This document shows, piece by piece, positions 51,521-58,273 of a DNA stretch of 64,000 bases. The DNA comes from Apibacter mensalis (GTDB taxonomy: Bacteria > Bacteroidota > Bacteroidia > Flavobacteriales > Weeksellaceae), in NCBI RefSeq assembly GCF_001418685.1, contig NZ_LIVM01000002.1, positions 62,001 to 126,000 on the forward strand, in the 5' to 3' direction. Under the pieces are notes generated by a model. That model did not search any database and had not been told where the DNA came from. It saw nothing but the letters and a program-made list of their open reading frames with translations. Made by a program: the position numbers and the translations under genes. Each line of letters begins with the position of its first letter. Position 1 is the first letter of the stretch.

Positions 51521-53506
51521 CTATTTACCCAAGTTGGATTTTTGCAGTCGAACTGCATTTAATATAGCTAAAAGAGCTACCCCCACATCTGCAAATACGG
51601 CCTCCAATAAATGGATATTACCAAATATGCCTAAAATCATAATAATAATTTTGATTCCAAAAGCTAAAAACACATTCTGCCATACCACATATTTAGTTGC
51701 TTTTCCTATTTTAACAGCAATTGGTATTTTAGAGATTTGATCATCTTGGATGATCACGTCAGCCACTTCGATCGTTGCATCACTACCAAGCCCTCCCATA
51801 GCTATACCTACATCACTTAATGCAATAACCGGTGCATCATTAAATCCATCACCTACAAAAGCTACTTTTTCGGTAATAGAGGATTTTATTTCTTTCATTT
51901 TAGAGACTTTATCTTCAGGTAAAAGCTCACCATAGGCATGTTCAATCCCTAAATCTTTTGCTACTTTTTGTACGATTGAACTTTTATCACCGCTAAGAAC
52001 TGTTAAACCTATACCTAATTCATGCATACTTTTAATATCTTCTTTAGCTCCTGATTTGATTTGATCTGCTATTACCAAATACCCGGCAAATTTATGGTTT
52101 ACTGCAACTAAAACTACCGTATTAATTATCTCCTTACTATTACTAGGATAAGAAATTCCATAAGCTTCCAGTAATTTAAAATTACCAACTAATATTTCAT
52201 TACCCTCAATTTCCACTTTTATACCTTTACCCGGGAAGTCTTCCATGGTAGTAATTTTAGTTACATCCGGCTTACAGCCAACATATTCAAGAATAGCAGC
52301 AGCAATGGGATGATTACTATGAGATTCTGCCATATTTATCCATTGTAAAACTTGAGTTTGTTCAAAACCCGGTTCAATGTGTACGGTCTCAACAGAAAAA
52401 TTTCCTTTTGTTAAAGTACCTGTTTTATCGAACACAACTTGCTTAACATCTGCCAAAATATCCAGGAAGTTGGATCCTTTAACCAAAATCCCATTTCTGG
52501 AAGCTAAACCTATACCTCCGAAATATCCTAAAGGTATTGAAATTACTAAGGCACAAGGACAGGAAATAACTAAAAATATTAATGAACGATACAACCAGGT
52601 TTCATATACATAATTCGTGACAAAAAAATACGGAAGTATAAATACCATTAAAGCTATAAAGAAAACGAAAGGAGTATAAATCTTAGCAAATTTTCTGATA
52701 AATAACTCAGTTTTTGCTTTTTGACCGGTAGCGTTTTGAACTAAATCTAATATTTTGGATAATTTACTATCGGAATAGGGTGTGGTAACTTTTACAATGG
52801 AAGAAGTAGTTAGATTAATCATTCCCGCTAATATAGTTTCTCCTTTTTCCTTAATTTGAGGGGCACTTTCTCCGGTTAGTGCCGAGGTATTGAAAGTAGC
52901 TGAACTAGAAAGTAACTCTCCATCCAAAGCTACTTTATCTCCCGGTTTTAACTGAATTATTTCTCCTACTTGTACATCATTAGCTTTCACAACTCTAACC
53001 GTTTGATTTTCTATTACTGTGGCTTCATCAGGTCTTTGATCCAATAAAGCGTTAATATTACTTTTTGCTTTAGCCACCGCTAACGATTGCAAATTTTCTC
53101 CTATGGAATAAAAAAGCATCACTGCTACCGCTTCCGGAAATTCACCTATATAAAAAGCACCTACCGATGCTAAAAATATCAAAGATAGTTCATTAAAAAA
53201 ATCCTTATGCTTAAACTCTTCCAACATTTCTTTAAACACGGGATATCCCACAGGTAAGTATGCTAAAATATACCCTCCAAGTCTTAGCCAAGATTTAAAA
53301 AATGAAGTATGCGAATAATCTAAAATAAGAGCGATAGCCAACAGAACTGAACAGATTATAGCCGGTAAAAATAATTGATAAATATTTATATTGAAGTCGA
53401 TTTTATGATCATGAGTATGTTCATGATTGGTTTGATAGTTATCATGGGAGTGATTCTTTTTATTATCGTCATCATTACAGGCACAACCGGGTTTATAATT
53501 AGACAT
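51521..53506 (-). CDS. zntA: Heavy-metal P1B-type ATPase (zinc/cadmium exporter type)
   Basis: A 661-residue transporter. The membrane motif SCPCALVISIPLGYFGG carries the CPC triad of P1B pumps. The phosphorylated Asp is at residue 360 in DKTGTLTKG, followed by the HP motif SHNHPIAAAI-like (ESHSNHPIA) and GDGFNDAPVIALSDVGIAMGG. The last helix holds ADVGVALLAILNAVRL, whose Asp typifies Zn2+/Cd2+/Pb2+ pumps (P1B-2). The N-terminus has no HMA domain but a Cys/His/Asp-rich stretch of about 35 residues with eight His, a likely metal-binding tail. Promoter box at 53533-53540. Confidence 0.94.
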   Translation of the reverse strand: MSNYKPGCACNDDDNKKNHSHDNYQTNHEHTHDHKIDFNINIYQLFLPAIICSVLLAIALILDYSHTSFFKSWLRLGGYILAYLPVGYPVFKEMLEEFKHKDFFNELSLIFLASVGAFYIGEFPEAVAVMLFYSIGENLQSLAVAKAKSNINALLDQRPDEATVIENQTVRVVKANDVQVGEIIQLKPGDKVALDGELLSSSATFNTSALTGESAPQIKEKGETILAGMINLTTSSIVKVTTPYSDSKLSKILDLVQNATGQKAKTELFIRKFAKIYTPFVFFIALMVFILPYFFVTNYVYETWLYRSLIFLVISCPCALVISIPLGYFGGIGLASRNGILVKGSNFLDILADVKQVVFDKTGTLTKGNFSVETVHIEPGFEQTQVLQWINMAESHSNHPIAAAILEYVGCKPDVTKITTMEDFPGKGIKVEIEGNEILVGNFKLLEAYGISYPSNSKEIINTVVLVAVNHKFAGYLVIADQIKSGAKEDIKSMHELGIGLTVLSGDKSSIVQKVAKDLGIEHAYGELLPEDKVSKMKEIKSSITEKVAFVGDGFNDAPVIALSDVGIAMGGLGSDATIEVADVIIQDDQISKIPIAVKIGKATKYVVWQNVFLAFGIKIIIMILGIFGNIHLLEAVFADVGVALLAILNAVRLQKSNLGK

Positions 53507-56110: not shown

Positions 56111-56160
56111 TTACAAATATATTAAATTATTAATTTTTTTAAATCAAATAATCAACTTTT

Positions 56161-56168
56161 CAAAAATA
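56161..56168 (-). promoter_or_regulatory. Candidate -7 promoter element of the DtxR-type gene
   Basis: Minus-strand TATTTTTG, matching TAnnTTTG, 50 bases before the start codon. A second match (TATATTTG, 56121-56114) lies only 3 bases before the start and would give a nearly leaderless message. Confidence 0.35.
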
Positions 56169-56186
56169 CAACAGTCAAATAAATTT

Positions 56187-56202
56187 ATTAGAATACTCTA
56201 AT
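56187..56202. promoter_or_regulatory. Candidate operator palindrome for the DtxR-type repressor
   Basis: ATTAGA, four bases, then TCTAAT: a perfect 6-bp inverted repeat ending 4 bases before the -7 box of the receptor gene, so a bound repressor would block polymerase. It lies inside the intergenic region shared with the repressor gene, 77 bases upstream of its start. The match to a DtxR/MntR site is by position and symmetry, not by a known consensus for this species. Confidence 0.45.
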
Positions 56203-56206
56203 TTTT

Positions 56207-56214
56207 TATATTTG
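56207..56214 (+). promoter_or_regulatory. Candidate -7 promoter element of the TonB-dependent receptor gene
   Basis: TATATTTG matches TAnnTTTG, 19 bases before the start codon at 56234. Confidence 0.5.
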
Positions 56215-56233
56215 TGAGTCTAAATTAATAATT

Positions 56234-58273
56234 ATGAAAAGAGATTTAACTGCACTTTTTGTATTATCCCTTTGCTCATTATATTCCCAAGAGGTAAAAG
56301 ATTCATTTGAAAATAACAAGGAAAAACATATAGATGATATAGTCATTACGGGAACTTTAAAGGAAGTAAGAAAATCTGACAGTACGGTACCGGTAGAAAT
56401 TATTACGCCGAAATTTTTCCAGAAGAACCCTACTCCTAGTCTTTTTGATGCTGTCGGAATGATTAATGGAGTTAAACCTCAACTCAATTGCAGTGTTTGT
56501 AATACAGGAGATATACATATTAATGGTATGGAAGGTCCTTACACCATGATATTAATAGATGGAATGCCCATCGTTAGCGGATTAGCTACTGTTTACGGAC
56601 TTAGTGGTATTCCCAATAGTCTGGTGGAAAGAATTGAAGTAGTTAAAGGTCCTGCTTCTTCTTTATACGGTTCGGAAGCCATGGGAGGAATTATAAACGT
56701 AATTACTAAAAATCCGCAAAAAGCTCCTAAATTTGCAGCAGATATTTTCAGTACAAGCTGGGGAGAGCTTAGTACAGATTTATCTTTTAAATTTAATGCC
56801 GGTAAAAAAGCAGCCGGCTTGCTGGGTATTAATCATTTTTATTATGATAATCCTATGGATGCCAATCACGATGGATTTACTGACTTAACCTTACAAAACA
56901 GAATATCGGTTTTTAATAAATGGAGCTTTAAAAGAAAGGATAACAGAATAGCTAGTTTAGGTTTACGATGGGTAAATGAAGATCGCTGGGGAGGAGAAAT
57001 GAAATGGAATAAAAAATATCGGGGAAGCGATCAGATTTATGGAGAAAGTATATATACGAAACGTGCAGAAATAATCGGGCTTTACCAATTACCTCTCTCA
57101 GAAAAAATTTTTACACAATTTTCTTATAATTGGCATAATCAAAATTCATGGTATGGAGAAACTCCCTTCATGGCAACCCAACAAGTTGCATTTATCCAAA
57201 GTTACTGGGATAGGACTATAAAAAATCATAATCTTTTAGCAGGAGCATCTTTCAGATATACTTATTTCGATGATAATACACCTGCAACCTCTTCTGCCGA
57301 CGGTTTGAAAAACAAACCAGCTGAAACTCCTTTACCGGGATTATTTTTACAAGATGAATGGACCATTAATGACAAAAACAAACTCTTGATAGGTTACAGA
57401 TACGATAACGATAAACATCATGGAAATGTGCATTCTCCTAGAATAGCCTACAAATTTACATTGAATCATTATAATTCTTTTAGAGCCAGTTTGGGTACTG
57501 GTTTTAGAGTTGTAAATATATTTACTGAAGATCATTCTGCTCTTACAGGAGCCAGAGATGTGGTCATATTGAATTCTTTGAAGCCGGAACGGTCCTATAA
57601 CGGAAATTTAAATTATGTCAAAAAAATTATGTCAAAAAATCTGAATGTAAATCTCGATGTTACCGGATTTTATTCTTATTTCACCAATAAAATCATTGGA
57701 GACTTTGACTCTAATCCAACTAAAATCATTTATGATAATTTAAACGGACATGCAGTTTCTCAAGGAATATCATTAAATACAGAATGGTTTTTCTTAGTTC
57801 CATTTAAAATTATAGCAGGTATTACTTATATGAATGTTTACACCAAAGAGAAAAATGATTTTAGGAACTATTTCAGAATTGAACAGCTTTACGCTCCCAA
57901 ATGGTCCGGAACATTCGTCATGACCTATACCTTCCCTCAAAACTTTATTTTGGATTTTTCCGGACAATGGAATGGAAAAATGAGATTACCTATTGAACCT
58001 AATGATTTTAGAAATGAGTATTCACCGTGGTATTGTATAGCAAATATCCAATTAACCAAAAAATTCGATAATGGAATGGAAATTTATGGAGGAATTAAAA
58101 ATTTATTTAATTTTACCCCTAAAAATCCTATCATGCGCCCATTTGATCCGTTTAATAAAGACGTAGATAATCCGGTTACCAATTCTAATGGTTATACTTT
58201 CGACACTTCTTACAATTATGCTTCGTTACAAAAATTAAGAGGTTTCATAGGTATAAGATATAACTTTTTTTGA
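56234..58273 (+). CDS. TonB-dependent outer-membrane receptor
   Basis: A 679-residue receptor. A short signal peptide (LTALFVLSLCSLYSQ) is followed by a TonB-box-like region DDIVITGTLKE, then the plug domain (about 40-155) with DIHINGMEGPYTMILIDGMPIVSG and RIEVVKGPASSLYGSEAMGGIINVI. The 22-strand barrel ends with the aromatic strand FIGIRYNFF. The plug carries a CxxC (Cys86 and Cys89, in LNCSVCNTGD). No carboxypeptidase-like N-terminal domain, so it is not SusC-like. It imports a metal chelate, heme, cobalamin or free metal; the DtxR/MntR-type gene next door favours a metal substrate. It is monocistronic. Confidence 0.93.
   Translation: MKRDLTALFVLSLCSLYSQEVKDSFENNKEKHIDDIVITGTLKEVRKSDSTVPVEIITPKFFQKNPTPSLFDAVGMINGVKPQLNCSVCNTGDIHINGMEGPYTMILIDGMPIVSGLATVYGLSGIPNSLVERIEVVKGPASSLYGSEAMGGIINVITKNPQKAPKFAADIFSTSWGELSTDLSFKFNAGKKAAGLLGINHFYYDNPMDANHDGFTDLTLQNRISVFNKWSFKRKDNRIASLGLRWVNEDRWGGEMKWNKKYRGSDQIYGESIYTKRAEIIGLYQLPLSEKIFTQFSYNWHNQNSWYGETPFMATQQVAFIQSYWDRTIKNHNLLAGASFRYTYFDDNTPATSSADGLKNKPAETPLPGLFLQDEWTINDKNKLLIGYRYDNDKHHGNVHSPRIAYKFTLNHYNSFRASLGTGFRVVNIFTEDHSALTGARDVVILNSLKPERSYNGNLNYVKKIMSKNLNVNLDVTGFYSYFTNKIIGDFDSNPTKIIYDNLNGHAVSQGISLNTEWFFLVPFKIIAGITYMNVYTKEKNDFRNYFRIEQLYAPKWSGTFVMTYTFPQNFILDFSGQWNGKMRLPIEPNDFRNEYSPWYCIANIQLTKKFDNGMEIYGGIKNLFNFTPKNPIMRPFDPFNKDVDNPVTNSNGYTFDTSYNYASLQKLRGFIGIRYNFF

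Follow-up and report, generated by a model that had tools for sequence, protein, structure and literature searches.

A conserved TTAG-N6-CTAA site upstream of TonB-dependent receptor genes and mntH points to a probable manganese-uptake circuit in Bacteroidota

A palindrome between divergent regulator and receptor genes

The DNA analyzed here, referred to as the window, is a stretch of 64,000 nucleotides from Apibacter mensalis (contig NZ_LIVM01000002.1, positions 62,001 to 126,000), in which a DtxR/MntR-type gene (- strand) and a TonB-dependent receptor gene (+ strand) diverge from an intergenic gap of 123 bases at 56111-56233. An earlier note made from the letters alone had described this pair of genes together with a perfect 6-4-6 palindrome ending 4 bases before the -7 box of the receptor promoter, and the open reading frames (ORFs), Pfam domains and coordinates of the features all agree with that description. 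The note had further proposed that the palindrome is the site of a metal-dependent repressor and predicted that the receptor imports the metal (or its chelate) sensed by that repressor. The first of these proposals was strengthened by comparison with relatives: the core of the palindrome, TTAG-N6-CTAA, travels with the receptor gene through Bacteroidota, a copy is found before the mntH gene of the same genome, and the site is missing before mntH in four relatives that lack a dtxR gene. The recurrence of the site before receptor genes and genes for manganese (Mn) importers in many relatives points to a widespread putative Mn-uptake circuit.

The grounds originally given for a repressor site, symmetry and spacing, proved to be weak, since the window contains 57 perfect 6-4-6 palindromes, and symmetry was dropped as a criterion for an operator for that reason. 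Genome-wide over-representation was also dropped as evidence: the pattern RTTAGN6CTAAY occurs 20 times in the Apibacter mensalis genome versus 19 for the reversed control, and across 60 genomes GTTAGN6CTAAC has 72 places and its reversed control 195. The site stands out from chance by where it lies and how well it is conserved, not by its symmetry. Of the 20 matches to RTTAGN6CTAAY in the window's own genome, ORFs contain 17 and only three are intergenic: those of the receptor and of mntH, and one (G000:C7:79852, L139) before the gene for a 163-amino-acid protein with a CLECANCC motif, 80 residues of which gave no match in Pfam. The longer form TTAGANNNNTCTAA (TTAGA-N4-TCTAA) occurs 11 times, compared with 5 for its control; nine copies are inside ORFs, and the only two intergenic ones are again the receptor and mntH sites. 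A second exact copy of the palindrome, ATTAGAGTTATCTAAT, is located inside a gene and was rejected as an operator. The site itself, its conservation, its position before the receptor gene and mntH, and the lack of it in genomes without the repressor gene are direct observations, which are detailed below.

Conservation of the site upstream of receptor genes

A receptor alignment scan of named genomes returned at least 583 relatives, from which the best 80 loci were kept by score and not as a random sample. They span Flavobacterium, Chryseobacterium, Pedobacter, Chitinophaga, Dyadobacter, Emticicia, Runella and others. When the region from 200 nucleotides upstream to 30 nucleotides downstream of the called start was searched (the called start being wrong in several loci), TTAG-N6-CTAA was found upstream of the receptor in 71 of the 80 loci, across Bacteroidota. 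Any other gap from 0 to 20 gave at most 10 loci, the reversed and everted controls gave at most 9, and shuffled upstream regions gave a mean of 0.62 per 80 with a maximum of 4. The core was also found upstream of 47 of the 673 other ORFs in these loci, at least partly because they are divergent dtxR genes sharing the site. Seven of the nine misses (L178, L180, L188, L205, L211, L214, L220) carry the core farther upstream of a wrongly called start or before an upstream ORF. A dtxR gene is present in the flanks of 20 of the 80 loci, 18 of them core-bearing, so that 53 of the 71 core-bearing loci have no dtxR in the flank. The Bacteroidota -7 consensus, TAnnTTTG, follows the operator within 24 nucleotides in 21 of the 71 loci (1.4 expected), with 14 of these sharing the offset of 5 seen in the window, and stands just upstream of it in 12 of the 71.

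The same association was evident in a receptor search of 60 genomes, which gave 30 match rows from 28 genomes. A CxxC motif in the plug domain is present in 28 of these rows, representing 27 genes (two rows are pieces of one gene), and the core lies upstream of 25 of the 27, the exceptions being those of G036 and of G009, a genome without dtxR. Neither of the two rows that lack CxxC (27-29% identity) has the core. The upstream regions used for these genomes were 450 nucleotides from the alignment start, and single matches, such as that of G001, may be due to chance. Because dtxR is in the locus for just 14 of the 30 rows, the site is independent of the neighbourhood. The divergent dtxR-receptor arrangement was seen in 8 of 30 loci examined, including that of the window, with TTAG-N6-CTAA kept in these.

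Three of the best 80 loci (L194 5192-5554, L195 5298-5678 and L205 5233-5598) have a small histidine-rich ORF of about 120 amino acids, with a motif like HAHKLSSGKIITHAHPY, directly upstream of the receptor gene; in L205 the operator is located before this ORF. Its product is possibly a metal-binding partner.

The same site before mntH and other importer genes

The earlier note had called for a search for the palindrome before other metal-uptake genes, and a copy near such a gene does exist: ATTAGAAAAGTCTAAC lies directly before mntH, the single Nramp (PF01566) gene of the window's own genome, 5 bases after a TATATTTG box. For the relatives, Nramp matches of more than 400 bits were counted and those below 60 bits were left out. 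The core precedes mntH in 29 of the 30 relative genomes with dtxR (29 of 32 gene copies) and in none of the four without it (G005, G009, G011, G022; PF02742 absent in each), a difference with a Fisher P of 1.1e-4 when relatedness is ignored. The four dtxR-less genomes come from four genera, one of which is the window's own. No core was seen in G037, where the Nramp match is weaker (201.8 bits) and there is no dtxR match.

The 72 places with GTTAGN6CTAAC in the 60 genomes include 17 within 500 nucleotides before mntH, 7 before receptor genes and 1 before dtxR, with 47 elsewhere; regions before these three genes make up a very small fraction of the genomes searched. Thirty of the other 47 places were examined, and 16 were inside ORFs and 14 between genes. 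Among the latter are places in three genomes without a full Nramp match. The site in G025 precedes a gene for a ZnuA-family lipoprotein followed by an ABC ATPase gene, and the one in G017 precedes a ZIP gene. The third genome, G035, has two sites (L287, G035:C8:886500-893500), in the vicinity of a gene for Fe/Mn superoxide dismutase and ahead of an ABC exporter gene that adjoins one for an AraC-type regulator; it contains two dtxR-receptor pairs and no Nramp match. Clusters of dtxR, mntH and the receptor gene were found in G038, G053, L187 and L189.

As a separate observation, the mntH open frame has 468 amino acids in the window's genome (G000:C3:172820-174400; L013, L098), compared with 620 in seven other genomes of the genus (L085, L087, L095, L097, L100, L106, L107) and 619 in G005. 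A C-terminal extension seems to have been lost or broken in the window's genome.

Layout of the intergenic region

The features of the locus are listed in Table 1. Because the second TATATTTG box, on the repressor side, is 65 bases away, the palindrome is positioned to act on the receptor promoter. A TCTAA downstream of the receptor -7 box may be a third contact or merely the transcription start region.

Table 1. Features of the regulator-receptor locus, in positions of the window
Feature	Position	Strand	Basis
DtxR/MntR-family repressor gene, 221 amino acids	55445-56110	-	ORF; winged helix, metal-binding dimerisation domain, FeoA domain; Pfam and PDB relatives
Second copy of TATATTTG, likely -7 box of repressor gene	56114-56121	-	3 bases from repressor ATG, 65 bases from palindrome
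Putative operator, perfect palindrome ATTAGA-ATAC-TCTAAT = ATTAGAATACTCTAAT	56187-56202	unstranded	Symmetry, conservation, genome-wide copies
Putative operator core TTAG-N6-CTAA	56188-56201	unstranded	Inside the palindrome
TATATTTG, -7-type promoter box of receptor gene	56207-56214	+	4 bases after palindrome end
TCTAA, possible extra half-site (weak)	56219-56223	unstranded	Downstream of receptor -7 box
TonB-dependent receptor gene, 679 amino acids	56234-58273	+	ORF; Plug and barrel Pfam domains; folds Cir, BtuB, FepA
Codons of plug motif Cys86-x-x-Cys89 (NCSVCNTGDIHINGMEGPYT)	56489-56500	+	Invariant in aligned orthologues

The repressor

Matches above the Pfam cut-offs to the winged-helix domain PF01325 (52.7 bits, cut-off 26) and the dimerisation domain PF02742 (100.6 bits, cut-off 27) place the regulator in the DtxR/MntR family, and the FeoA domain PF04023 (30.3 bits) is also above its cut-off. 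It is the only PF02742 gene found in its genome. Extracts of a study of this family (PMC4805248) give Asp8, Glu99, Glu102 and His103 as the metal ligands of BsMntR. Glu100, Glu103 and His104 of the regulator match the last three of these, and Asn8 occupies the Asp8 position. The protein looks MntR-like, with an odd first ligand.

The sequences before the dtxR genes of relatives contain a wider repeat of the same half-sites. TTAG-N18-CTAA (GTTAGA-N16-TCTAAC, with single-base variants next to the core counted) was found in 11 of 30 relatives' loci (L029, L031-L033, L035, L040, L042, L043, L045-L047). Among the other gaps from 0 to 30, a gap of 6 gave eight loci, in which the site is shared with the receptor gene, a gap of 28 gave six, and the rest gave at most one. 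With its half-sites two helical turns apart, the TTAG-N18-CTAA repeat suggests that dtxR is probably autoregulated. The six cases of TTAG-N28-CTAA bear on the weak TCTAA downstream of the receptor -7 box in the window.

Weaker DtxR-like matches (31-36% identity) were seen in G035, G042, G047, G048 and G059, mostly in open frames of about 420-460 amino acids; these are possibly DtxR domains fused to another protein.

The receptor and a thioredoxin-fold protein

Membership of the receptor in the TonB-dependent family is clear from the Plug domain PF07715 (72.8 bits, cut-off 23.9) and the TonB_dep_Rec barrel PF00593 (100.4 bits, cut-off 27), and its nearest solved folds in a Foldseek search were those of Cir, BtuB and FepA. 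Cys86 and Cys89 of the plug are invariant in 18/18 and 43/43 aligned orthologues, and the motif reads C[S/N/G][V/I]C in nearly all rows (CSVC, CNVC, CGVC etc.). A profile alignment to Cir puts this CxxC in a loop of the plug that immediately precedes the strand bearing an IRG-like motif. The AlphaFold model of the receptor has a mean predicted local distance difference test (pLDDT) score of 79.7, which falls below 50 at residues 78-102, the CxxC loop, so the placement of the motif is taken from the profile alignment. Plasmid records searched with the receptor yielded 18 matches, none reaching 60% identity and none informative.

In 39 of the best 80 of at least 583 loci, the receptor gene is followed on the same strand by a gene for a thioredoxin-fold protein that itself has a CxxC (median length 154 amino acids). 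Two examples scored above the cut-off for Thioredoxin_2, and a PDB search returned two weak matches (E 6e-4 and 7e-4). Judged by eye from its hydrophobic N-terminus, the protein is probably secreted. Apibacter adventoris has such a receptor-linked protein. No gene for it is found beside the window's receptor, and elsewhere in the same genome there is only a 26% match with stops.

A proposed circuit for manganese uptake

We consider it probable that the DtxR-family protein encoded next to the palindrome uses it as its operator, and that this protein is a Mn(II)-activated, MntR-like repressor controlling Mn uptake across both the outer and the inner membrane. The Mn(II)-loaded repressor would bind TTAG-N6-CTAA as a dimer and so block the receptor promoter at the spacer immediately before its -7 box and, in the same genome, mntH at a site immediately after its -7 box. 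Under Mn shortage, the two genes would be derepressed, the receptor would carry Mn(II) or a Mn chelate across the outer membrane, and MntH would carry Mn(II) across the inner membrane. Binding, the role of Mn(II) as co-repressor, repression and the substrate of the receptor are all predictions from sequence comparison. The sensed metal is likely to be Mn because Nramp is the commonest partner and because of Glu100. Import of Mn by the receptor is plausible, and it is made more likely that the receptor imports the sensed metal because the operator is common to it and mntH.

Several observations weigh against this circuit. The sequences compared are related, and 22 of the best 80 receptor loci are from Chryseobacterium or Epilithonimonas. 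No core was found for the receptors of L194 and L195 even when the search was extended farther upstream, and none precedes the receptor of G036, the mntH of G032, or the second mntH copies of G024 and G034, all three of these mntH genomes being dtxR-bearing. The count of GTTAGN6CTAAC over 60 genomes is below that of its control, and most of the 14 other intergenic places have no metal link. On the side of the proteins, the first metal ligand of the repressor is neither Asp nor Met, and the cut-offs of the NCBIfam MntR equivalogs, models that describe other lineages, were not reached (NF047407, 132.7 of 350 bits; PRK03902, 57.7 of 138; PRK11050, 55.7 of 153). In addition, the ZnuA, ZIP and Nramp families also hold carriers of Zn or Fe, and paired cysteines would be unusual ligands for Mn(II).

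Some of these features could be read with iron in mind. The repressor might sense Fe(II) in the manner of DtxR/IdeR, with the receptor taking up a ferric siderophore and the Nramp protein importing Fe(II)/Mn(II). The resemblance of the receptor to Cir, PirA and FepA in sequence and fold, the FeoA domain of the repressor and the presence of Asn8 instead of the Mn-type Asp fit this possibility, as does the binding of both Fe(II) and Mn(II) by PgMntR of the same phylum, according to extracts of PMC4805248. However, the commonest co-regulated gene encodes an Nramp protein, replaced by a ZnuA-type ABC or ZIP system, families that are linked to Mn, and Glu100 stands where the iron-type DtxR has Cys in the ligand sets of the same extracts. 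Moreover, none of the sites seen in the window's own genome precedes an iron-only system, feo genes not having been searched by name. We think that sensing of iron is quite unlikely. Alternatively, the repressor could be an MntR whose target receptor imports something other than Mn, for example a Mn-sparing iron chelate or a corrinoid. The fold and profile matches to BtuB and ferric-siderophore receptors would be explained in this way, a CxxC is not a typical Mn site, and Mn and Fe regulation are interlinked in Stenotrophomonas maltophilia as described in the available portion of PMC13217887. On the other hand, the receptor and an inner-membrane metal importer stand under one operator in many genomes, with dtxR-mntH-receptor clusters among them, and a different cargo appears quite unlikely to us as well. 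Finally, a chance repeat in AT-rich DNA or a mere promoter part, for which the 57 palindromes of the window and whole-genome counts near or below controls would speak, is already contradicted by the comparative data and deserves practically no credence: a gap of 6 alone is conserved, in 71/80 receptor and 29/32 mntH upstream regions (dtxR-bearing genomes), and the site is absent where dtxR is absent.

The Mn circuit could be extended to a Bacteroidota-wide outer-membrane Mn importer in which the cysteine pair of the plug is redox-active and serviced by the dedicated secreted thioredoxin-fold protein. Thiol/disulfide exchange would then gate the capture or release of the metal and tie Mn uptake to the oxidative state, and the MntR operator TTAG-N6-CTAA would have been moved between unrelated inner-membrane importers (mntH, ZnuA-type ABC, ZIP). 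This extension is speculative, and we regard it as doubtful.

Comparison with known systems

Operators of DtxR/IdeR are inverted repeats of TTAGG-like half-sites that overlap promoters. The site described here is alike in being an inverted half-site repeat overlapping a promoter, and it differs in consisting of a lone TTAG...CTAA pair enclosing six free bases, the wider GTTAGA-N16-TCTAAC being found before dtxR in 11/30 relatives' loci.

The closest parallel in regulatory logic comes from Stenotrophomonas maltophilia. According to the available portion of a 2026 report (PMC13217887), MntR of this organism controls mntH, mntP and a TonB-dependent receptor with a CQNC plug motif and a periplasmic thioredoxin-fold protein (pTFP), and mntH and the receptor locus rise in an mntR mutant. 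By this published description, the two systems are alike in operators (putative here) that overlap promoters and in an MntR-type logic (proposed here). The receptor/thioredoxin-fold architecture is alike in those orthologous loci, 39 of 80, where such a gene follows the receptor gene. They differ in the plug motif, which is C[S/N/G][V/I]C here and not CQNC, and in the operator, a palindrome of 14-16 bases here and a 25-bp MntR box there. The phylum is Bacteroidota, a word absent from the main text of PMC13217887, and in the species of the window no thioredoxin-fold gene adjoins that of the receptor. By analogy, the proposed circuit would work like the S. maltophilia receptor-pTFP module without necessarily being a member of it. 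Another TonB-dependent Mn receptor, MnoT of Burkholderia thailandensis, is mentioned in the same source together with the secreted Mn-binding protein TseM and a type VI system. Compared by description, the receptor proposed here would be like MnoT in serving outer-membrane Mn uptake and is unlike it in that TseM and the type VI system belong to the description of MnoT.

Within Bacteroidota, the regulator can be compared with PgMntR of Porphyromonas gingivalis as presented in the extracts of PMC4805248. Both are DtxR-family regulators with mixed Mn/Fe ligands and C-terminal FeoA sequences. PgMntR has Asp19 and Cys108 where Asn8 and Glu100 are found here, and two FeoA domains instead of one; those extracts mention no receptor partner for it.

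Although the regulatory logic is known elsewhere, the extent of the circuit in Bacteroidota, the TTAG-N6-CTAA operator and the employment of this operator in front of unrelated importers appear to be new as far as the literature was searched. Titles and abstract starts in the open-licence literature yielded no account of this regulon in Bacteroidota, which does not prove that none exists. This phylum has a great many TonB-dependent receptors, of which few, to our knowledge, have a known metal substrate. The operator rule and the diagnostic plug motif would together assign a widespread receptor family, with at least 583 relatives, to Mn, name its repressor, and give the thioredoxin-fold protein as a candidate partner. 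If this is true, outer-membrane Mn import would not be peculiar to proteobacteria, and genomes would be enough to read the group's Mn regulon.

A neighbouring gene

The own-genome motif sites listed do not report the operator core at another metal-related gene of the window, which encodes a Zn/Cd-type heavy-metal P-type ATPase. This gene is found at 51521-53506 on the - strand, about 2 kb from the repressor gene.
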